Source: Acidobacteriota bacterium (GTDB lineage Bacteria > Acidobacteriota > Thermoanaerobaculia > Multivoradales > JAHEKO01). From it: a stretch of 37,314 nucleotides of DNA. Location: assembly GCA_029862975.1 (NCBI GenBank), contig JAOTWP010000025.1, forward strand, positions 1-37,314, in the 5' to 3' direction. The notes beneath the pieces were generated by a model that worked only from the letters and a program-made list of their open reading frames with translations, ran no database searches and was not told where the DNA came from. Positions within the stretch are counted from its first letter, which is position 1, and each line of letters opens with the position of its first letter. The position numbers and the translations under genes are program-made. Positions 1-18,595 of this stretch are shown piece by piece.

Positions 1-1416
1 GCAGGCCAACCCCCGGCCGACGACGTGGCTCAGGTGGGGGAACTCCCGGCCGAAGGGGCGGGCCGTGCGCCCCTCGATGCCGGCGTGGCACTCCAGGCAG
101 GGCGTTTCGTACGGCGCCTCCGGCCAAGCCGTGCGGAAGCTCGCGAGCCCACGGGCGCCGCGCACCGAGTTGATCTCCTCGTGCGCCGCCCCCAGCAGGG
201 CCAGACTGTAGGGGACGTTGTGGATTCCACGGCCGCGCTCGACGAGCTCGAGGTTGGCCCGCGCGTCGGCCAGGGCTTCGGCGGCCGCGGGGCCGAGCTG
301 CCGCGCGGTGTCGTCGAGCTCGCGGCGCACCGCGGCTCGGCGCTCGGCGACGCTCTCGGACCAGGACGCAAAGAGGGTGCGGTACTCCGGACCGTGGCAG
401 CTCATGCACGACACGGCGCCCGCGGTGCTGGTCCCGGCCCCGTCGTGATCGAAATGGCACCCTTCGCACCGCACTCCGGCGCGGAACATCACGTCGGGCA
501 TCGGCGGCACGCCCTTGCCGGCGATGCCGGCGTAGAGATCGCGCTGCGGGGAATGGCGGCCGGCGTGGCAGGCCGCGCACTCGGACTGTGCGGCCTCCAG
601 GTGGCGGGGAGCGACGTGCTGGATCTCGAGGTGGCAGTTGGTGCACTCGACCTTGTGATCGGTGACGTGGGTCTGATGCAGCAGGTCGCCGTCCTCGTAC
701 TCCGCCAGTCGCGCCGGCTCGTTGTGACAGGTGAGGCACCTCTCCCGCGGCACGCCTCCCTCGGACGCCGCGGGAGGTGTGTGGCAGGAGACGCACTCCA
801 TCCCGAAGCGGGAGACCTCGCCGTGGTCGAACTCGAGACCCGCCGCGTCGACCACGCGGTCGGGAACCTGGTGACAGAGGGTGCACCGCGCCGTGCCCTC
901 CCCGGGTCGCTCGCCCTTGAAGTGGCACAGGATGCAGCTCGTCGTCGTCACGGTGATGTGGCTGCCTTGAACGATCTGCGAGTGGCAGGAGGTGCACTGC
1001 AGCCGCTTGCCCCGCCGCAGCTCGGAGAGATGCGGCCGGTGGTCGAAGAGCACGTCGCCGAAGAGCTCGCTGCCCGACAGCAGGCGGCGATCGTGGCATT
1101 CCAGGCACGCCGCGTCGTCGACCTCCGCCCACGGGTTGGTGCCGTACGTGCCGGTGAAGTAGCGCGCCACCATCGACAGCGCCTCGTACTTCTTCTCGAG
1201 CTCGGCCGTGATGCCGGGGGGGATGTGACAATCGACGCAGGCGATGTCCCCGTGGCTCGAGCTCACCCAGGAGTCGTAGTAGGGCTCCATGATGTGGCAC
1301 GAGCCGCAGAAGGTCGGCGTCGAGCTCACCTCGATGGCGCCGTAGGTGAGGACCAGCCCCAGACCCACGACCATGCCGACCACGTAGCCGGCGATCGTGA
1401 TCTTTCCGAACTTCAT
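1..1416 (-). CDS. NapC/NirT-like multiheme cytochrome c, 3' end cut by window edge
   Basis: This gene is absent from the ORF track because it has no stop inside the window. Reading the complement from ATG at 1416 gives 472 uninterrupted codons. The protein starts MKFGKITIAGYVVG, with one hydrophobic segment at residues 8-26 that is probably an uncleaved membrane anchor. The first heme motif, CGSCH, follows directly, as in NapC/NirT-type quinol dehydrogenases. I count 13 CXXCH motifs (CGSCH, CVDCH, CLECH, CTSCH, CILCH, CTLCH, CVSCH, CLTCH, CTNCH, CAACH, CEGCH, CMSCH, CLECH), and the last visible residues, GLAC, may open a fourteenth. The start overlaps the upstream cytochrome gene by ATGA, implying translational coupling. 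The inferred role is a membrane-tethered periplasmic electron carrier taking electrons from the Rieske/cytochrome b complex encoded upstream. The terminal acceptor is unknown. Confidence 0.9.
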   Translation of the reverse strand, partial: MKFGKITIAGYVVGMVVGLGLVLTYGAIEVSSTPTFCGSCHIMEPYYDSWVSSSHGDIACVDCHIPPGITAELEKKYEALSMVARYFTGTYGTNPWAEVDDAACLECHDRRLLSGSELFGDVLFDHRPHLSELRRGKRLQCTSCHSQIVQGSHITVTTTSCILCHFKGERPGEGTARCTLCHQVPDRVVDAAGLEFDHGEVSRFGMECVSCHTPPAASEGGVPRERCLTCHNEPARLAEYEDGDLLHQTHVTDHKVECTNCHLEIQHVAPRHLEAAQSECAACHAGRHSPQRDLYAGIAGKGVPPMPDVMFRAGVRCEGCHFDHDGAGTSTAGAVSCMSCHGPEYRTLFASWSESVAERRAAVRRELDDTARQLGPAAAEALADARANLELVERGRGIHNVPYSLALLGAAHEEINSVRGARGLASFRTAWPEAPYETPCLECHAGIEGRTARPFGREFPHLSHVVGRGLAC

Positions 1417-2615
1417 CGCCGGCCGCTCGCGCGGCCGAGTCGCCGCCTGTACCCGAACAGGATGACCAGGGTCATCAGGACGTAGAACCAGAAGATCGCC
1501 AGCCCGATGTGGGCGTTGGTGCGGTCCAGCTCGCTGTAGAGCTCGTGCTGGATCTCCTGCCCGATCGACCGCGCCCGGCGCGTCACCTCCTCGACCGGCT
1601 CCACCGAGACGGCGTGGACGATGGTCTGGGCTTCGGTGACGTAGGTACGCGCCTCGCCGAGGCGAGCGAGGTGGTCTTCGACGTCGAGAGGCACCTTCTC
1701 GGCCTCGAGCGTCAGGAGCTCCGCCCGATCGAGCTCCTCGCTCGCGGCACCGATCAGCGCGCGCACCTTGAGGCCGACCTGCACCGCCTCCGAGTCGCCT
1801 TCGTGACACTCGGCGCACAGGCTGCCGAGGTCGGCGTCGTCCAGCGGATGGATGGCGTGGTTCGAATGGCAGGACTCGCACTCGGGCAGATTCGCCGCCG
1901 CCAGGCCCGTGCCGTGCGGCCCGGCCAGAAACGCGACGCGCGCCTGCACGTGGCAGGTGCCGCAGACCTTGCCGACGTCGCCCACGCCGGGGGGCGTGGC
2001 GCCGTGCACGCCGTGGCAGTTGACGCAGGTCGGCGCCGCGACGTTGCCGGCCGCGACCGCTCTGCCGTGGACGCTCGACTCGTAGCGCTCCACGAGCTCG
2101 TGGTCGTGCCCGTAGCGCTCCATCAGGCTGCGATCGCCGTGGCAGCGGCCGCAGGTCGCGCCCAGATTGGCGGGGTTCGCCGGACTCCTCGGGTGGTCGG
2201 GCGCGCGGATGTCGTGCACGCCGTGGCAGTCGGTGCACACCGCGGCGCGCTCGTCACCACCGGCCACGCTGAGGCCGTGCTGCGACGTCTGGTACATCGC
2301 GTACTGATCCACCGGCAGGTTGTAGGGGCGCATCTGCTCGAGGTCGGCGTGGCACGCGGCGCAGGACTTCGGAACTCCGGTCCGGTCGGCCAGGCTCTGG
2401 AAGCCGCCCCGGTGCGCCGCCGCCACGTCGCGGCTCGCCGGATCGCCGCCGTGGCAGCCGGTGCAGCCGACGCCCTCGCTCGCGTGGATGCTCTCCGCGG
2501 CCAGCACCCGCTCCGCCGGGTGACAGAGCACGCAGGCCTCGTCCGCCGCGGCCGCACCCGGTGCCAGGAGCAGAAGCCACACCAACCGCCCGGGAGACGG
2601 AGATCGGACCCCCAT
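1413..2615 (-). CDS. nonaheme c-type cytochrome with C-terminal membrane anchor
   Basis: This 400-residue protein has a Sec signal peptide (MGVRSPSPGRLVWLLLLAPG, then AAAADEAC). It carries nine CXXCH motifs: CVLCH, CTGCH, CAACH, CTDCH, CGRCH, CVNCH, CGTCH, CESCH and CAECH. A Cys-free, probably helical stretch of about 90 residues follows, then a C-terminal transmembrane helix (IGLAIFWFYVLMTLVILFGYRRR). The periplasmic heme wire is thus tethered by its tail. The ORF track shows it fused to an upstream frame (1413-4133), but that extension is antisense-like read-through across cytochrome b. The true start at 2615 overlaps the cytochrome b stop (TGATG), and its end overlaps the next cytochrome by ATGA. 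It most likely replaces cytochrome c1 as electron acceptor of the Rieske/cytochrome b pair. Confidence 0.92.
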   Translation of the reverse strand: MGVRSPSPGRLVWLLLLAPGAAAADEACVLCHPAERVLAAESIHASEGVGCTGCHGGDPASRDVAAAHRGGFQSLADRTGVPKSCAACHADLEQMRPYNLPVDQYAMYQTSQHGLSVAGGDERAAVCTDCHGVHDIRAPDHPRSPANPANLGATCGRCHGDRSLMERYGHDHELVERYESSVHGRAVAAGNVAAPTCVNCHGVHGATPPGVGDVGKVCGTCHVQARVAFLAGPHGTGLAAANLPECESCHSNHAIHPLDDADLGSLCAECHEGDSEAVQVGLKVRALIGAASEELDRAELLTLEAEKVPLDVEDHLARLGEARTYVTEAQTIVHAVSVEPVEEVTRRARSIGQEIQHELYSELDRTNAHIGLAIFWFYVLMTLVILFGYRRRLGRASGRR

Positions 2616-3739
2616 CAGGCCACCTTCGTTCCATACAGGGTGAGAGCCAGCCAGACCGCCACGGCGACCCCGGCCAGCACCATCAGCAGGAGCCGCCCGC
2701 CGCGGCGCTCCAGCGAGCGAGCCCAAAAGGGCACGAGAACGAACGCCGTCGTCGCCGCGAGCAGCACCAGACCGGCCAGCCATCGCGGCAGCCAGCTCGC
2801 CGTGATCTCGAAGAACCCGAACGGCGCCAGCAGGTACCACGGGGGGTGGACGCCGGGGAGCGTGGCGTAGGGCTCGGCGCCGGCGGGCAGGCCGCGCGGC
2901 GCCAGGACCCCGAGGGTGACGAGCGCCGCGACCAGCACGGTCAGCAGGATGGCGAGGTTGACGACGTGCTGGCGGAAGGTCACCCCATCGTCGGAGGCGC
3001 TCGCGCGCACCTTCGACGGGTCGAGCCCGACGCGGCGGATCGAGGAGAAGTGCAGGTAGATCAGCGTCAGCATCGCGATGGGCAGCAGGACGACGTGGAA
3101 GATGTAGAACCGCAACAGCGTCAGCTCCGAGATGACCGCGCCTTCGGTGCCGCTCAGGAAGCTCACCAGCCCGCCGTAGAGGGGAATCGTCTGAACGACC
3201 TCCAGGGCTCGAACCCCGGACCAGTACGCCGTGCCCGTCCAGGGCAGGATCCGCCCGGTCAGCTCGGCGTGAAACGCGACGAGCAGCAGCAGAGAGGCGA
3301 AGACCCAGACCAGCTCGCGGGGAGCGCGATAGACCCGCTGCAGGAAGAACCGCAGGACCCTGAGCGCCAGGATGGCCAGGAGCAGCTGCGCTCCCCAGTA
3401 GTGGACCTGGTGCACGAAGCCCCCGAAGTGCACCTCGCTCAAGATCGTGGCGGCGCTCGCGTGAGCGCCTTCGGGGGTCGGCGAGTAGTAGAACGTCAGC
3501 AGTCCGCCGGTGAAGATCTCGACGCCGATCAGGACCACGGCCGCGAGACCCAGGACCCGAGGCCAGGCGGAGTACGAGGGCATCGGCCGCGCCATCGCCT
3601 CGGCCAGCGCCTCGCGTGGCGGCTTGCTGCTGTCGAGCTCCGCGTGGAAGAAGCCGTAGCTCACCAGGAGCGAGAAGATCTCGGTGAGCACGAGCCTCTC
3701 CGACAGCCAGTCGAGCCATCCCTTGCGCTGTGGGTTCAT
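2615..3739 (-). CDS. cytochrome b subunit of a bc-type quinol oxidoreductase
   Basis: This 374-residue membrane protein joins the b6-like four-helix heme domain to a C-terminal subunit-IV-like part. The family pattern is clear: HYWGAQ at about 113, TGRILPW at about 161, RFYIFH at 210-215, YLHF at 229 and a Qo-site motif PPWY at 299-302. Heme ligand positions by alignment with cytochrome b6 are H113 paired with H215 (Qo-side heme bL) and position 127 paired with H230 (Qi-side heme bH). Position 127 is Arg instead of His (nucleotides re-read and confirmed), so heme bH may be altered or missing. Menaquinol is the likely donor because the Qo motif is PPWY rather than PEWY, but that is an inference. 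The Rieske gene lies 21 bases upstream. The stop overlaps the next cytochrome start. Confidence 0.93.
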   Translation of the reverse strand: MNPQRKGWLDWLSERLVLTEIFSLLVSYGFFHAELDSSKPPREALAEAMARPMPSYSAWPRVLGLAAVVLIGVEIFTGGLLTFYYSPTPEGAHASAATILSEVHFGGFVHQVHYWGAQLLLAILALRVLRFFLQRVYRAPRELVWVFASLLLLVAFHAELTGRILPWTGTAYWSGVRALEVVQTIPLYGGLVSFLSGTEGAVISELTLLRFYIFHVVLLPIAMLTLIYLHFSSIRRVGLDPSKVRASASDDGVTFRQHVVNLAILLTVLVAALVTLGVLAPRGLPAGAEPYATLPGVHPPWYLLAPFGFFEITASWLPRWLAGLVLLAATTAFVLVPFWARSLERRGGRLLLMVLAGVAVAVWLALTLYGTKVA

Positions 3740-5966: not shown

Positions 5967-6452
5967 GTGGTGAAGGTCCCGGTCGCTGTCCGAGTCAACG
6001 GCCGCCTCTACGAAAGGGAGGTCGAGCCGCGGCTGCTCCTCGTCCACTTCCTGCGGGATCTGGACGGCCTCACCGGCACCAAGGTGGGGTGCGACACGAG
6101 CCAGTGCGGCTCCTGCACGGTGCTCCTCGACGGCATGACCGTCAAGTCCTGCACCTGCCTGGCGGTGCAGGCCGACGGCGCGGCGATCACGACGATCGAG
6201 GGGCTGGCGGCGGAGAACGGCGCTCTGCATCCCCTGCAGGAGGCCTTCTGGAACCAGCACGGGCTGCAGTGCGGATTCTGCACTCCCGGCATGATCTTCG
6301 CTGCGCACGAGATCCTGCGCACCAGCCCCGACCCCTCGGACGAGGAGATCCGGCACGGCCTCGAAGGCAACCTCTGCCGCTGCACCGGGTACCAGAACAT
6401 CGTGCGCTCCGTGCGCGCGGCAGCCGACGCGATGCAGGAGGGCGAGGGATGA
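5967..6452 (+). CDS. coxS: [2Fe-2S] small subunit of CO-dehydrogenase-like molybdenum hydroxylase
   Basis: This 161-residue protein of the xanthine oxidase/CoxS family has the plant-type ferredoxin cluster motif (CDTSQCGSC, then SCTC) in its N-terminal half. The second cluster in the C-terminal helical domain is seen as CGFCTPGM and CRCTGY. It carries electrons from the molybdenum site of the large subunit to FAD in the medium subunit. The start is one of two adjacent GTG codons (5967 or 5970). A strong Shine-Dalgarno AGGAGG at 5955-5960 suits either, and no ATG is suitably placed. It opens a five-gene operon, and its stop overlaps the large-subunit start by ATGA. Confidence 0.93.
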
Positions 6453-8800
6453 GCGCCAAGATCTTCGGCTCGGGAATCCGCCGGCGCGAGGACCCGCGCC
6501 TCGTCACCGGCAGCGCCACCTACACCGACGACATCACGCTGCCCGGCATGGTCTACGCCGCCATGCTGCGCAGCCCGCACGCCCACGCGCGGATCCGGAG
6601 CATCGACACGGCCGCCGCCGCGGCCGCCCCCGGGGTCCTGGCCGTCTACACCGGGGCCGACACCGCGGAGGCCCTCGCGCCTGTGCCCACGGCCTGGCTG
6701 CTGCCGGATTCCGATCTCCAGGTCGCCGACTACCCGGCGATCGCCAGGGACACCGTCCGCTACGTCGGCGACATCGTCGCCGTCGTCGTCGCGGAGAGCC
6801 GCTACCAGGCCTACGACGCCGTCGACCTCGTCGCGGTCGACTACGAGCCGCTGCCGGCCGTCGTCGACCCCGAGCTGGCCTCGCGGCCCGGGGCGCCGCA
6901 GATCCACGACGGCATCGCCGGCAACCAGGCGCTGCACTGGACGGTGGCCGGCGGCGACGTCGAGGCGGCCTTCGCGAGCGCCGACGTCGTCGTCGAGGAG
7001 CGCATCGTCCAGCAGCGCCTCATCCCCAACGCCATGGAGACCCGCTCCGCCGTCGCCCGGTTCACCCGCGCCTCGGGCGAGCTGACCCTGTGGAACACGA
7101 CCCAGAACCCGCACATCGCGCGGTTCATCTGCTCCGCCGTCACGGGCGTCCCCGAGGACCGGCTGCGGGTGATCGCCCCCGAGGTCGGCGGCGGCTTCGG
7201 CAGCAAGATCGCCGTCTACCCCGCCGACTTCGTGACCGTCTTCTGCGCGATGCGGCTGGGGCGGCCCGTGAAATGGACGGAGACCCGCAGCGAGAACTAC
7301 CAGGCGACGACCCACGGCCGCGATCACGTCCAGCAGGTCGAGCTGGCGGCGACCCGCGACGGCCGCATCACGGGCCTGCGCTGCTCCGTGTGGGCCGGCC
7401 TCGGCGCCTACCTGTCGACGGCCGCGCCCGGCATTCCCACCATCCTGCACGGGCTCATGCTCTCGGGCGTCTACGACATCCCGGCCGTGAAGGAGGACGT
7501 CTACGGCATCTACACCAACGCCACCCCGGTGGAGGCCTACCGCGGCGCGGGGCGCCCCGAGGCGACCTTCATGCTCGAGCGCCTCGTCGACCGCCTGGCC
7601 GGCGAGCTCGGCCTCGACCCGGCCGAGGTGCGGCGCCGCAACCTGATCCCGCGGTTCGAGGACGGCCACCCCGTCGTCACCGGCCTCACCTACGACAGCG
7701 GCGACTACCCGGCGGCCCTCGAGAAGCTCCTCGCCCACGCCGGGTACGACCGGCTGCGCGCGGAGCAGGCGGCGGCCCGCGAGCGCGGCCGCCATCTCGG
7801 GATCGGGCTGGCGACCTACGTCGAGATCTGCGGCCTCGGACCGTCGCAGGTCGCCGGCGCGATCGGCTTCCAGGGCGGCCTGTGGGAGAGCGCTATCGTG
7901 CGCTTCCACCCCAGCGGCAAGGTGCACGTCTTCATCGGCGCCTCGCCGCACGGCCAGGGCGAGGAGACGACCTTCGCCCAGATCGTCGCCAGCGAGGTCG
8001 GGGTGTCGCCCGACGACGTCAAGGTCTTCCACGGCGACACCGACAACACGCCCATGGGCTGGGGCACCTACGGCAGCCGCACGACGGCGGTGGGCGGCGC
8101 GGCCCTGGCCCTGACGGCGCGCAAGATCAAGGAGAAGGCCAAGATTGTCGCCGCCCACCTGCTCGAGGCCGCGGTCGAGGACATGGACTACGAGGACGGC
8201 AACTTCTTCGTCAAGGGGTCGCCCGACCGCGGCAAGACGATCCAGGACATCGCCCTCATGGCCAACGTCTCCTGGAACATGCCGGAGGGGGTCGAGTCGG
8301 GGCTCGAGGCGAGCACCTTCTACGACCCTCCGAACTTCACGTTCCCCTTCGGCGCCCACCTGGCCGTCGTCGAGGTGCATCCCGAGACCGGCCAGGTGGA
8401 TCTCCTGCGCTACGTCGCCCTCGACGACTGCGGGCCGCAGATCAACCCGGTCATCGTCGCCGGCCAGGTCCACGGCGGCGTCGTGCAGGGCATCGGCCAG
8501 GCCCTGTGGGAAGAGGCGGTGTACGACGAGAGCGGCCAGCTCGTCAGCGGCACGATGCTCGACTACGCCCTGCCGCGCGCCGACCGCCTGCCCGAGATCG
8601 AGGTCCTGTCGACCGTGACGCCCTCGCCCCATCACCCGATCGGCGTCAAGGGCGTCGGCGAAGCCGGCACGATCGCCTCGACGGTGACGGTCTACAACGC
8701 GGTCATGGACGCGCTGCGGCCGTTCCGGGTCGGCGCCGTCACGATGCCCCTCACCCCGGAGCGCGTCTGGCGCGCAATTCAGGAAGCTCAAGGAGGCTGA
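6449..8800 (+). CDS. molybdopterin large subunit, form II CoxL-like
   Basis: This 783-residue protein is the molybdopterin cytosine dinucleotide-binding catalytic subunit of the xanthine dehydrogenase family. I start it at ATG 6449 ([15 protein letters not shown]), which overlaps coxS. The longer track ORF from 5873 runs antisense-like through coxS. The active-site loop reads AYRGAGR at 363-369. That is the form II signature; form I CO dehydrogenases have AYxCSFR with the Cys that binds Cu. Other family marks are [20 protein letters not shown] and the catalytic Glu in [10 protein letters not shown] near the C-terminus. The small-large-medium gene order also matches form II clusters. CO oxidation is therefore not assured; the substrate could be an aldehyde, purine or other N-heterocycle. 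Confidence 0.92.
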
Positions 8801-8803
8801 GCC

Positions 8804-9667
8804 ATGTTCGCACCGCAATTCGGCTACCACCGCGCGAGCTCGGTCGCAGAGGCCGGTGAGCTCCTGCGCAGCAACCCGGGGGCCAAGCTGCTGGCGGGCG
8901 GCCACAGCCTCATCCCGGTCCTCAAGCTGCGGCTGGCGGCGCCGCCGGCGCTCATCGACATCGGGCGCCTGGCCGAGCTCCGGGGCATCGCCGTCGACGG
9001 CGGCTCCCTGCGCCTCGGCGCCCTGACGACCCACGCCGAGCTCGCGGCTTCACCCGAGCTGCAGCGGCACGCGCCGGCCCTGGCGCAGGCCGCGTCCGTG
9101 ATCGGCGACCCGGCGGTGCGCAACCGCGGCACGATCGGCGGCAACGTGGCCCACGCCGACCCCGCGTCGGACCTGCCCACCGTGCTGGTGGCGCTGGGAG
9201 CGGCCTTCGAGATCGCCGGCGCGGGCGGCGAGCGCACGGTGCCGGCGGCGGAGTTCTTCCAGGGGATGATGGCGACGGCGCTGGGCGACGGCGATCTGCT
9301 GACGGCCGTGGTCCTGCCGGCCCGGCCGCCGGGTCAGGGCCAGGCCTACGTCAAGTTCGCGCATCCGGCGTCGCGCTACGCCGTCATCGGCGTCGCCGCG
9401 GCGCTCACCGTGAGCGACGGCGCGTGCACGGCGGCTGCCGTCGCCGTCGGCGGACTCGTGCCCGTGCCGCTGCGGGCGCCTTCGGTCGAGGGGGCGCTGG
9501 CCGGCGGTCCCGTGGCGGCGGACGCCCTCGCGGCGGCGGCGGACCGGGTCGCGGCCGACCTCGGCGACGATCTCATCGGCGACGTCTTCGCCTCGGCCGA
9601 GTACCGCAGGGCCGTGGCCGCGGTCTGGGTGCGGCGCGCGCTCGAGGCGGCGGCGCAAGCCGCGTAG
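8804..9667 (+). CDS. coxM: FAD-binding medium subunit of molybdenum hydroxylase
   Basis: This 287-residue protein belongs to the CoxM/FAD-binding family. The two FAD pyrophosphate-contact motifs are present: AGGHSLIPVLKLRLA near residue 31 and TIGGNVAHADP near residue 107. The C-terminal CO-dehydrogenase flavoprotein domain follows. In the complex it accepts electrons from the small-subunit [2Fe-2S] clusters and passes them to the quinone pool or another acceptor. It begins three bases after the large-subunit stop, with a strong AAGGAGG ribosome site inside the end of that gene. It is followed after 21 bases by the MoxR ATPase. Confidence 0.93.
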   Translation: MFAPQFGYHRASSVAEAGELLRSNPGAKLLAGGHSLIPVLKLRLAAPPALIDIGRLAELRGIAVDGGSLRLGALTTHAELAASPELQRHAPALAQAASVIGDPAVRNRGTIGGNVAHADPASDLPTVLVALGAAFEIAGAGGERTVPAAEFFQGMMATALGDGDLLTAVVLPARPPGQGQAYVKFAHPASRYAVIGVAAALTVSDGACTAAAVAVGGLVPVPLRAPSVEGALAGGPVAADALAAAADRVAADLGDDLIGDVFASAEYRRAVAAVWVRRALEAAAQAA

Positions 9668-9688
9668 CCCGCGGCCCGGCGCGACCTC

Positions 9689-10606
9689 ATGGCGCGAGAC
9701 CGAGCCCCGCGCTCGATCGATGAGCTCTGCGAGCTGCTGGCCGGCGAGCTCTACATCGCCGATCGCGGGCTGGCGACGTCGATCTACCTCGCCCTCCAGC
9801 TGGGGCGGCCGCTCCTGCTGGAGGGCGAGGCCGGGGTCGGCAAGACCGAGGTCGCCAAGGTCCTGGCGGGCGGGCTCGGCACGGAGCTCATCCGCCTGCA
9901 ATGCTACGAGGGCCTCGACGTCAACCACGCGGTCTACGAGTGGAACTACGCCCGGCAGCTGCTCGAGATCCGGCTGATGGAGGCGAGCGGCACCCTCGAC
10001 CGCGAGGCGGCCGCCGCCGAGCTCTTCAGCGAGGAGTTCCTCGTGCGGCGTCCGGTGCTGCGCGCCCTCCAGCACGGGGGCCGGCCTCCCGTCCTCCTGA
10101 TCGACGAGCTCGACCGTGCCGACGAGGAGTTCGAGGGCTTCCTCCTGGAGATCCTCTCCGACTTCCAGGTGACGATTCCGGAGCTCGGGACGATCCGCGC
10201 CGAAGCACCGCCGATCGTCATCATCACCTCCAACCGGACGCGCGAGCTCCACGACGCGCTCAAGCGCCGCTGCCTCTACTTCTGGATCGACTACCCCGAC
10301 TACGAAAAGGAGCTGAGCATCGTCACCGCCAAGGTCCCCGCGGCGTCGCGGCGGCTGGCCGAGCAGGTCACGGGCTTCGTCCAGGAGCTGCGGCTGACCG
10401 CGCTCTACAAGGTGGCGGGCGTCTCCGAGACGCTCGACTGGATCGCCGCGCTGACCGCCCTCGACCGCTCGGAGCTCGACGCGCGAACGGTGGACGAGAC
10501 GCTGGGGATCGTGCTCAAGAACCAGGAGGACATTCGCGCCGTGCGCGGCGAGCGCGTCCGGGCGATCCTCGACCGCGTGGCCCACCCCGGCGCCGCCGGC
10601 GCGTAG
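9689..10606 (+). CDS. MoxR-family AAA+ ATPase (CoxD-like maturation factor)
   Basis: This 305-residue MoxR-type AAA+ ATPase has Walker A GEAGVGKTEVAK (about 48-60) and Walker B LLIDELDRADEEFEGF (about 133-148). Sensor 1 is IITSNRTRELHDALKRRC, with its arginine finger region. In characterised CO dehydrogenase clusters the equivalent CoxD is a membrane-bound chaperone that helps install the metal centre. Here it most likely acts with the VWA protein encoded three bases downstream to mature the molybdenum enzyme. The tight spacing after the medium subunit supports co-transcription. Confidence 0.9.
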   Translation: MARDRAPRSIDELCELLAGELYIADRGLATSIYLALQLGRPLLLEGEAGVGKTEVAKVLAGGLGTELIRLQCYEGLDVNHAVYEWNYARQLLEIRLMEASGTLDREAAAAELFSEEFLVRRPVLRALQHGGRPPVLLIDELDRADEEFEGFLLEILSDFQVTIPELGTIRAEAPPIVIITSNRTRELHDALKRRCLYFWIDYPDYEKELSIVTAKVPAASRRLAEQVTGFVQELRLTALYKVAGVSETLDWIAALTALDRSELDARTVDETLGIVLKNQEDIRAVRGERVRAILDRVAHPGAAGA

Positions 10607-10609
10607 AGG

Positions 10610-11824
10610 ATGGGATCGCTCCTCCCCAACCTGCTGCGCTTCGGACGGCTGCTCCGCGCCCTCGGGCTCGAGGTGCCGGCGGGGAGCATGCTGACGGCGG
10701 CCCGCGCGCTCGAGCACGTCGATATCGGCCGGCGCGGCGACTTCTACCACGCGCTGCGCTGCGTGCTCGTCCGTCGCGCCGCCGACCTGCCGCCCTTCGA
10801 CGCCGCGTTCCGTGCCTTCTGGCGCCGCCCTCCCGGGCGGCGGGTGAGGAACCGTCCGCGCGCCATGGGCGAGGAGATCCGCTTCGGCGAGCCGGAGGTC
10901 GATCCCCCGTCTCTGGCGGCGGAAGCGGGGGACGATCCGAGCTCCGGGGGGCCGCTCGCCGAGCCCCGGCACCTCGAGCTGGCCACCCACAGCGCCCGGG
11001 AAGCTCTGCGGCGGAAGGACTTCGCCCTTTACTCCGCCGCCGAGATCGCCGCCGCGGAGACGATGATGGCGCGGCTCGACTGGGAGGTCGGCTCGCGCCG
11101 CACCCGGCGCTGGCTCGCCGGCGCCGGCCCCGGCCTGGACCTGCGCCGGCTTCTGCGCAGCGCCGCGCGCCACGGGCAGGACGACCCGGTGCTGCCTCGA
11201 CGGCGGCGCAAGGTCCGCCGCCGTCCCCTCGTCCTGATCTGCGACGTCAGCGGCTCGATGGAGCGCTACACCCGCATGCTGCTCCACTTCTGCCACTCGC
11301 TGACCGGCGGTCTCGAGGGCGTCGAGTCGTTCGTCTTCTCGACCCGCCTCACTCGCGTGACGCCCGAGCTGCGGCGGGGGCGGATCAACGACGTTCTGCC
11401 CGCGCTGAGCGAGCGGGTGCACGACTGGTCCGGGGGGACGCGGATCGGGGAGGCGCTCGGCTCGTTCGCGCGCGACTGGGCGCGCCGGATCCTCGGCCAC
11501 GGCGCGGTCGTGCTGCTGATCTCCGACGGCTGGGACCGCGGCGATCCCGAGCTCCTGGCGCGGGAGATGGCCCGGCTGCAGCGCTCGTGCCATCGCCTCG
11601 TCTGGCTCAATCCGCTGCTCGGGGCGCCCGGCTACGAGCCCCTGACGCGGGGCATGCGAGCCGCCCTGCCGCTCGTCGACGACTTCCTACCGGTGCACAA
11701 CCTCGAGAGCCTGGAGACGCTGGCGCGCCATCTCAACCGGCTGCCGGAGGCCCGGTCGCGGCGACCGGTCGCGCCGCCGGGTCACGCCCTCTCGCGCCGG
11801 TCCAGGGCGGCGGTGCAGCGGTAG
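10610..11824 (+). CDS. CoxE-like VWA-domain protein
   Basis: This 404-residue protein has a C-terminal von Willebrand A fold with a MIDAS motif (DVSGSM, about residue 208), VLLISDGWDRGD, and the preceding conserved helical region of CoxE-type proteins. MoxR and VWA proteins work as pairs in cofactor insertion and complex assembly, and CoxE with CoxD is required in known CO dehydrogenase clusters. No signal peptide is visible, so it should act in the cytoplasm. It lies at the end of the molybdenum hydroxylase operon. Its last 43 bases overlap the oppositely oriented archaemetzincin gene, which is tail-to-tail. Confidence 0.88.
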   Translation: MGSLLPNLLRFGRLLRALGLEVPAGSMLTAARALEHVDIGRRGDFYHALRCVLVRRAADLPPFDAAFRAFWRRPPGRRVRNRPRAMGEEIRFGEPEVDPPSLAAEAGDDPSSGGPLAEPRHLELATHSAREALRRKDFALYSAAEIAAAETMMARLDWEVGSRRTRRWLAGAGPGLDLRRLLRSAARHGQDDPVLPRRRRKVRRRPLVLICDVSGSMERYTRMLLHFCHSLTGGLEGVESFVFSTRLTRVTPELRRGRINDVLPALSERVHDWSGGTRIGEALGSFARDWARRILGHGAVVLLISDGWDRGDPELLAREMARLQRSCHRLVWLNPLLGAPGYEPLTRGMRAALPLVDDFLPVHNLESLETLARHLNRLPEARSRRPVAPPGHALSRRSRAAVQR

Positions 11825-16439: not shown

Positions 16440-16469
16440 CCCGAGCGCCGCGACCACCTGGAGGATGCC

Positions 16470-17339
16470 ATGGAGCGTCGCACCTTCCTCAAGTTGACGG
16501 CCGCCGCCGGGGCCACGTCCCTGGCCGGCTGCGCCAGCGCCCCCCGTAGCGCCGAGGACGCCGGCGAGGACTACGCGGTCCTCGTCGACCTCACCCAGTG
16601 CGCCGGCTGCCGCATGTGCGAGTTCGCCTGCGCGGAGGCCAACGGGCTGCCGGAGCCCGACTACGACGAGAAGACGGTCGACCAGGTCCGGCGCGAGCCT
16701 TCCGAGAGGCAGTGGCAGGTCGTCAACCGCTTCGAGACCAGCGCCGGAGAGGTCTACGCCCGGCGCCAGTGCATGCACTGCCTCGAGCCCGCGTGCGCCG
16801 CCGGGTGCCTCACCAAGGCCCTCGTCAAGACCGACGAGGGACCCGTGGTCTGGCGCGCCGACAAGTGCATGGGCTGCCGGTACTGCATGATCTCGTGCCC
16901 CTTCGACGGGCCCAAGTTCGAGTACCACAGCCCCGTGCCCAGGATCCAGAAGTGCCAGATGTGCTGGGAGCGCCTGCGCGCCGGGGAGCGACCGGCGTGC
17001 GTGGAGGACTGCCCGATGGAGGCCCTCGTGTTCGGCAAGCGCTCGGAGCTCCTGGAGCTGGCGCGCCAGCGCATCTACGGCAATCCGGGCGACTACGTGC
17101 CCCACATCTACGGCGAGCACGAAGCGGGCGGCACCAGCTGGCTCTATCTGTCCCCGGTTCCCTTCGCGGAGCTGGGCTTTCCCACGAACCTCGGCACGAC
17201 GTCGTACCCCGAGCTCACCCGCGACTTCCTGACCGCCGTGCCGGTGGTCCTCACCGTCTGGCCGGCCTTCCTGCTGGCCCTGCGGCGGGCCAACGTGGGT
17301 GACGACGAAACCGCCGGCAGCCCGGCGAGGGAGGAGTGA
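16470..17339 (+). CDS. HybA/DmsB-type periplasmic ferredoxin with four [4Fe-4S] clusters
   Basis: This 289-residue iron-sulfur protein begins MERRTFLKLTAAAG, a twin-arginine signal with a lipobox-like LAGC, so it is exported folded. Four cysteine groups follow: CAGCRMCEFAC, CMHCLEPACAAGC, CMGCRYCMISC with a conserved Pro, and CQMCWERL...CVEDCPM. These are the four cubane sites of the HybA/NrfC/PsrB family. A C-terminal hydrophobic helix (about 248-265) anchors it. It should relay electrons between a periplasmic redox partner and the NrfD-like subunit encoded next. No molybdopterin or hydrogenase catalytic subunit is encoded beside it. The start is set by GGAGG at 16460-16464, which spaces well only to ATG 16470. 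Confidence 0.93.
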   Translation: MERRTFLKLTAAAGATSLAGCASAPRSAEDAGEDYAVLVDLTQCAGCRMCEFACAEANGLPEPDYDEKTVDQVRREPSERQWQVVNRFETSAGEVYARRQCMHCLEPACAAGCLTKALVKTDEGPVVWRADKCMGCRYCMISCPFDGPKFEYHSPVPRIQKCQMCWERLRAGERPACVEDCPMEALVFGKRSELLELARQRIYGNPGDYVPHIYGEHEAGGTSWLYLSPVPFAELGFPTNLGTTSYPELTRDFLTAVPVVLTVWPAFLLALRRANVGDDETAGSPAREE

Positions 17340-17341
17340 CC

Positions 17342-18595
17342 ATGGCCGTCCTGGACTTCGAATCCCCGCGCGGAGCGCTCGCCGTCCTGCGCCGCGACCT
17401 GCGGCCCAAGGGACGGCTCCTGACCCCGTTCAACGTCGTCTCGGCGCTCATCATGGCGACGACCGCGGTGATCCTGGTCTTCCGCTTCGCCTTTGGCCTG
17501 GGAGCGGTGACGAACCTCGACCAGCGGTTCCCCTGGGGGCTGTGGATCGGATTCGACGTCGTGGCCGGCGTCGCCCTGGCCGGCGGCGCCTACGTCGTCA
17601 CCTTCCTCGTCTACATCCTGAGGCAGGAGCAGTACCGGCCGATCGTGCGGGTCACGGTCCTCAACGGCTTCCTGGCCTACGTCTTCTACGCCGGCGCCCT
17701 CGTGCTCGACCTGGGCCGGCCGTGGAACGTCGTCAATCCCATCATCGGCAACTCCTTCGGCCTCACCTCGGTGCTGTTCCTCGTCGCCTGGCACTTCCTG
17801 CTCTACATGACGGCCGAGCTGGTCGAGTTCTCGCCCGCGATCGCCGAGTGGCTGGGCTGGCGTCGGCTCCATCGGATCCTCGTGGGGATGACCGTCGGCG
17901 CCGTGGTCTTCGGCATCACGCTGTCGACGCTCCACCAGTCCGGGCTCGGGGCCCTCTACCTCATGGCCAAGCCGAAGATCCACCCGCTGTGGTACTCCGA
18001 GCTCATCCCGCTGCTGTTCTTCGTCTCGAGCATCTTCGCCGGCCTTTCCATGGTGATCGTCGAGGGCAGCCTGACCCGCCGGATCTTCGAGGACCGGGTG
18101 GGCTCCCGCCTGCGCCGCTCGCACGACGACATCCTGCTCGGCCTTGCCCGGATCGCCGGCGGCACGATGTTCGTGTACCTGTTCCTCGAGGCGATGAAGA
18201 TCCTGCACGGCCAGCTGTGGCGCGAGATCCGGGAAGGCTGGGGCGCCTGGTACCTGCTCGAGGTCCTCGGCCTCGTGGCCTTTCCCATGGTGCTGCTGCT
18301 CTACGGCGGAGTCCGCGGCAAGCTGCCGGCCGTGCGCGCCGGGGCGGCCCTCGCGCTCGCCGGCGTGATCCTCAACCGGCTCAACATCTCGGTCATCGCC
18401 TTCCGCTGGGACGAGCCGCTCCACTACGTGCCGACGTGGATGGAGCTCGTCGTCACGGCGGGCATCCTCTCCGCCGAGATCTGGGTGTTCCGCTGGGTCG
18501 TGGGTCGGCTGCCGGTGCTGGGTCGTCGGCCCGCCTGGGCCGAAGAACCCGGCCGCCACGGCGCGAGCGTCGAGACACGCCACGAGGCGGCCTGA
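17342..18595 (+). CDS. NrfD/HybB-like quinone-interacting membrane subunit
   Basis: This 417-residue protein has roughly ten hydrophobic helices and the conserved NrfD-superfamily segments FPWGLWIGFD (about 60-69), LDLGRPW, WHFLLYM and STLHQSGLGALYLMA (about 198-212). HybB-type members of this superfamily carry no heme and bind quinone near the periplasmic ferredoxin subunit. I prefer ATG 17342, two codons after the track's GTG start, because the GGGAGGAG ribosome site spaces correctly to it and the upstream gene ends at 17339. The protein should exchange electrons between the quinone pool and the HybA-like ferredoxin. Whether it reduces or oxidises quinone cannot be told from sequence. Confidence 0.92.
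   Translation: MAVLDFESPRGALAVLRRDLRPKGRLLTPFNVVSALIMATTAVILVFRFAFGLGAVTNLDQRFPWGLWIGFDVVAGVALAGGAYVVTFLVYILRQEQYRPIVRVTVLNGFLAYVFYAGALVLDLGRPWNVVNPIIGNSFGLTSVLFLVAWHFLLYMTAELVEFSPAIAEWLGWRRLHRILVGMTVGAVVFGITLSTLHQSGLGALYLMAKPKIHPLWYSELIPLLFFVSSIFAGLSMVIVEGSLTRRIFEDRVGSRLRRSHDDILLGLARIAGGTMFVYLFLEAMKILHGQLWREIREGWGAWYLLEVLGLVAFPMVLLLYGGVRGKLPAVRAGAALALAGVILNRLNISVIAFRWDEPLHYVPTWMELVVTAGILSAEIWVFRWVVGRLPVLGRRPAWAEEPGRHGASVETRHEAA

Follow-up and report, generated by a model that had tools for sequence, protein, structure and literature searches.

Rieske/cytochrome b complexes are usually regarded as sharing a universal core made of a two-heme cytochrome b and the Q cycle. The 37,314-nucleotide stretch of Acidobacteriota DNA analysed here (the window) encodes a cytochrome b in which one of the histidines that should hold heme bH is read as arginine, and the question that this locus raises is what becomes of that heme, and of the low-potential electron, in such a protein. 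An earlier note on this DNA had left three options: a changed ligand, the loss of heme bH and with it of a standard Q cycle, or a different routing of electrons into the multiheme cytochromes encoded in the same operon.

At the sequence level, the protein matches the Pfam families PF00033 (Cytochrome_B, 105 bits) and PF13631 (84 bits), both with cut-offs of 27, and its matches in the PDB are b6 and bc1 cytochromes b. The distances between ligand positions, 14 residues from 113 to 127 and 15 from 215 to 230, equal those of cytochrome b6 (86-100 and 187-202), so Arg127 does not arise from an error of register. Together with the AGG codon, this spacing bears out the earlier placement of an arginine at the heme bH ligand position, and the reading of H113, H215 and H230 as kept also stands, all three codons being CAC (Table 1). 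An AlphaFold2 model of the cytochrome b reached a pLDDT of 52, too weak to place Arg127 or any substitute ligand.

Table 1. Genes of the operon and diagnostic codons of the cytochrome b gene, in window coordinates.
Feature	Coordinates	Strand	Basis and remarks
Rieske [2Fe-2S] protein, 153 aa	3761..4222	-	Pfam PF00355; CTHLRC and CPCH intact; GxF replaces SxY of high-potential Rieske proteins
Cytochrome b, 374 aa	2615..3739	-	ORF, Pfam PF00033, codons and clade alignments; bL ligands kept, Arg127 replaces bH ligand
Codon 113, CAC (His), heme bL ligand	3401..3403	-	Invariant
Codon 127, AGG (Arg)	3359..3361	-	Position of heme bH ligand His (b6 His100, bovine His97)
Codon 215, CAC (His), heme bL ligand	3095..3097	-	Invariant
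Codon 230, CAC (His), second heme bH ligand	3050..3052	-	His in window protein; Asn in three clade members
Codon 300, Pro of P299-P300-W-Y	2840..2842	-	Replaces Glu of Qo PEWY motif
Nonaheme c-type cytochrome, 400 aa, 9 CXXCH	1413..2615	-	Signal-like N-terminus; C-terminal membrane helix
NapC/NrfH-like multiheme cytochrome, N-terminal membrane helix	1..1416	-	13 CXXCH visible before contig end; 18 in complete orthologues

The arginine is shared by a whole clade of relatives. This clade comprises 16 sequences from at least eight Acidobacteriota families and was compared with 35 canonical cytochromes b; arginine occupies the first bH ligand position in 16/16 of its members and in 0/35 of the canonical proteins, all of which have histidine there. 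Seven members are orthologues from the same family as the window protein and are 51-59% identical to it. A scan of named genomes placed the relatives in Acidobacteriota, mostly Thermoanaerobaculia, and gained one further member (L049), and a phylum-wide search of 396 genomes brought seven divergent members from seven further families, all carrying the arginine, whose scores of 295-485 bits are separated by a gap from the next matches, canonical proteins below 200 bits. Single-sequence scans of genome contigs and viral contigs returned no relative, and an alignment-based scan did find relatives. Two matches from Chloroflexota (L053 and L055) were rejected as members, having kept the histidine. 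In a 51-sequence tree, a branch supported at 100/100 separates the 16 arginine rows from all the others, and a single change explains the arginine. Outside the home family the clade is sparse, with 1/142, 1/38 and 3/41 genomes in three classes. The earlier note had asked whether the arginine is fixed among homologues or unique to the window sequence, and this monophyletic distribution settles the matter in favour of fixation. The probability that the residue stems from faulty sequencing or assembly, or that the gene is a decaying pseudogene, is negligible: all the sequences come from draft genomes, several of them with hundreds of contigs, but the same residue recurs in 16 independent assemblies, the frames are open, and dN/dS is about 0.07-0.13 in two close pairs, the cytochrome b gene being therefore maintained by purifying selection. 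The source genome, a draft of 309 contigs, also encodes two other cytochromes b with all four histidines.

The residues around both hemes were mapped on bovine numbering, by means of the bovine reference sequence and the contact roles of its residues. The second bH ligand, His in 35/35 canonical proteins, is His in 12 clade members, falls in an assembly gap in one and is Asn in the other three (L057, L059 and L061, that is, 3 of the 15 readable members), a distribution for which the tree needs three separate changes. Of the glycines at the bH site, that of helix C, which packs against the heme and occurs in 35/35 canonical proteins, is replaced in 10/16 clade members (by Ala in 8 and by Ser and Thr in one each, with Gly kept in 6; six changes), and that of helix A is Gly in 15 and Ser in one, a retention that counts against the loss of the heme. 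The Qi site has lost its acidic residue (bovine Asp228), which is Asp or Glu in 33/33 canonical proteins and has become Leu, Ile or Gln in 16/16. An apparent loss of bovine Phe220 was not relied on, as its column may be off by one. The bL ligands, the bL glycines and the helix-D proline are retained in 16/16 members with no change on the tree. The four histidines required for two b hemes are thus not complete in any member: the bL pair is always present, the first bH ligand is always Arg and the second has been lost in three. If bH and Qi were lost and bL kept, one would expect just such a retained bL site beside relaxed bH and Qi sites, and among the three options of the earlier note it is the absence of heme bH, and hence of a standard Q cycle, that gains support from the loss of the second ligand, the relaxation of the bH glycine, the loss of the Qi acid and the intact bL site. 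In Rhodobacter capsulatus, the H212N mutation is the standard means of removing bH, and Qo still reduces bL in this mutant (PMC4330944). When neither residue of the Lys251/Asp252 pair is protonable any longer, Qi of the same organism is inactive (PMC5001787); the window protein has Asn261/Leu262 at this pair. An N-terminal insertion of about 20 residues (protein residues 14-45), which canonical cytochromes b lack, also marks the clade; its Arg15, Ser23 and Gly29 are invariant, and it could fill an empty n-side pocket.

A conserved histidine elsewhere in the protein would have meant that heme bH is simply re-ligated. The search across the clade found no invariant histidines beyond the bL pair, and re-ligation of bH by another histidine therefore appears unlikely; the changed-ligand option is left without support. 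Three candidates for a replacement ligand, His110, His157 and His258, were rejected, none of them being conserved in all members. Arg127 and Arg130 are both invariant in the clade, and at the heme ligand positions no residue other than Arg127 is both invariant in the clade and specific to it.

The Qo site has been remodelled as well. The Glu of the PEWY motif is Pro, Ala or Gly in 16/16 clade members (three cytochromes b of the comparison set also have Pro), Tyr131 is Arg, Asn or Lys in 16/16, and Arg163, Arg177 and Glu180 have been gained, the last two being invariant. The motif still has its Trp and its Tyr/Phe. Because of this remodelling, with the PEWY Glu lost and Arg163, Arg177 and Glu180 gained, quinol chemistry at Qo is probably altered, and given the lost Glu and the new arginines Qo could also be inactive.

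The genetic context of the cytochrome b is as constant as its arginine. In the window, transcription runs from the Rieske gene through the cytochrome b and nonaheme genes to that of the NapC/NrfH-like cytochrome, and gene order is identical in the orthologous loci whose contigs reach far enough, with 9 and 18 CXXCH motifs in complete copies. A c-type acceptor is thereby encoded with the cytochrome b, the nonaheme cytochrome coming next in every locus that extends that far. The 18-heme partner is found in 15/16 clade genomes vs 0/20 control genomes, and in the sole exception (G017) the operon is present only as a contig-end fragment. Membership of this partner in the NapC/NirT family is indicated by the orthologue of G014, which matches PF03264 with 40 bits against a cut-off of 24.1 and is 71% identical to the window copy, itself cut by the contig end. 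The Rieske proteins of the clade have intact cluster ligands (CTHxxC, or a CTHxxC-like motif, and CPCH), but Gly and Phe take the places of the Ser and Tyr found in high-potential types. Hydrogen bonds from Ser and Tyr near the cluster ligands bear on the potential of Rieske proteins, and Gly and Phe fit a menaquinone-linked cluster of lower potential; a low-potential type is inferred because this Ser and Tyr are missing. Several orthologous loci carry, often directly upstream of the bH-less complex, a gene for a cytochrome that joins 11 hemes to a b561-type (PF01292) membrane domain (L035:2248-4161 and homologues), and the place that this gene often takes in orthologous loci is occupied in the window by an aldehyde dehydrogenase gene. 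In one genome (G174, L090:6630-13484) a full canonical Rieske/cytochrome b/nonaheme set lies head to tail directly before the Rieske/cytochrome b/nonaheme/NapC-like set of the bH-less type, an arrangement that suggests an origin by duplication or a joint function; the two cytochromes b could conceivably form a heterodimer.

The reading that we favour, and consider likely from the pattern of conservation, is that of a Rieske/cytochrome b module without heme bH and Qi and without a standard Q cycle. Menaquinol would be oxidised at the modified Qo, one electron passing to the Rieske cluster and the other to heme bL. Since no bH or Qi would be left, the second, low-potential electron would exit from bL on the periplasmic side into the multiheme chain. 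Such a complex would be unable to send that electron across the membrane to reduce quinone, and it would not translocate charge by a Mitchell Q cycle. For the proposal that both electrons leave on the periplasmic side, we put the chances at about even. The rerouting of electrons into the multiheme chain, the third option of the earlier note, agrees with the fixed operon encoding 9-heme and 18-heme cytochromes, the path beyond bL being our own projection. More speculatively, the clade may represent a natural quinol bifurcation in which the bL electron enters a periplasmic multiheme wire, either as a bH-free, two-potential enzyme working without a Q cycle or with the n-side half moved to a separate b561-type subunit, an idea that is possible but doubtful.

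Other interpretations keep some of these elements and drop others. Were Qo dead, the cytochrome b might be mainly a membrane scaffold or a bL relay, with menaquinol oxidised by the NapC/NrfH-like cytochrome. The changes at the PEWY Glu and Tyr131 in 16/16 members, the gained Arg177 and Glu180 and the NapC domain of the partner are in line with this; nevertheless, the Rieske protein still has its cluster motifs and the Qo motif its W-Y/F, the bL pocket is 100% conserved and the PEWY Glu is likewise missing from some comparison-set cytochromes b (three of them with Pro), so that we deem it unlikely, if deserving of some weight. Less probable still is a split Q cycle, in which the bL electron would pass to the periplasmic hemes and return through a separate CbcL-like subunit (11 c hemes and a b561-type four-helix domain) to quinone on the n-side. 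This scheme draws on the 11-heme/PF01292 gene lying directly upstream of, or near, the Rieske gene in seven genomes (G012, G017, G010, G005, G204, G014 and G189) and nearby in G006, but it is hard to extend to the window, where the aldehyde dehydrogenase gene takes its place and the source genome has just weak homologues (34%), and genomes that lack the bH-less complex (G003, G008, G013 and G025) have the gene too.

Alternatively, His230 might still hold heme bH in a five-coordinate, high-spin state, with Arg127 facing its distal side, and the heme would then work as a high-potential or ligand-binding one. His230 is indeed kept in 12 of the 15 readable members, Arg127 and Arg130 are invariant, and a high-spin heme b (bL) held by one histidine is stable in the R. 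capsulatus H198N mutant (PMC8138165). Against this, three members have neither ligand, the bH glycine and the Qi residues are relaxed across the clade, and R. capsulatus H212N loses heme bH (PMC4330944). For the clade as a whole such a heme is distinctly improbable, although the window protein and the 11 others that keep His230 may have it, and neither ligand is left in the three members with Asn.

The window holds further redox genes on the forward strand. A molybdenum hydroxylase operon (CoxS/L/M-like) with MoxR and CoxE genes lies at 5967-11824; its large subunit carries AYRGAGR, which is the form II motif, and the enzyme is therefore not a typical CO dehydrogenase. Another quinone-linked module, at 16440-18595, consists of a 4Fe-4S ferredoxin-like protein and, after it, an NrfD-type membrane protein.

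A search of an open-access library, which covers few of the subscription journals, turned up no account of a cytochrome b that naturally lacks bH. The clade belongs by descent to the Rieske/cytochrome b complexes yet lacks several defining features, namely the four histidines, the Qi acid and PEWY. If heme bH is absent as proposed, the clade would let Qo turnover without bH, and the fate of the low-potential electron, be tested directly, and its fixed pairing with 27 c hemes suggests a tie to multiheme electron-transfer chains.

Among known systems, the Ext (selenite/tellurite) operon of Geobacter likewise gathers a b cytochrome (ExtP), a Rieske protein (ExtO) and multiheme cytochromes (ExtM/N) in one cluster (PMC5877670). 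The best NCBIfam match of the window protein is in fact ExtP (NF040969), but its 145.1 bits fall below the curated cut-off of 290 and the identification was rejected; ExtP is a short b6-like protein, with partners unlike those of the window operon. As in the membrane quinol dehydrogenases of the NapC/NrfH type, a membrane helix and a NapC/NrfH-like heme domain form the start of the partner cytochrome, but in the clade this protein has grown to 18 CXXCH and belongs to a Rieske/cytochrome b operon. The 11-CXXCH/PF01292 gene often found upstream resembles the CbcL-type inner-membrane oxidoreductases (multiheme c plus b561), although it is absent beside the window operon. With cytochrome b6 of b6f and the fused b-type cytochromes, the clade shares the four-helix heme core, the 14/15 ligand spacing, the bL ligands and glycines, the propionate-side Arg130 and the Pro-x-Trp-Tyr region, and it departs from them in the Arg at the bH ligand, the variable second ligand, the relaxed bH glycine, the missing Qi acid and PEWY Glu and the N-terminal insertion. 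An experimental parallel is cytochrome bc1 H212N of R. capsulatus, whose His to Asn exchange affects the same second bH ligand position as in the three Asn members; that mutant is engineered and non-functional as a Q-cycle enzyme, whereas the clade is natural and combines its exchange with further pocket changes and multiheme partners.
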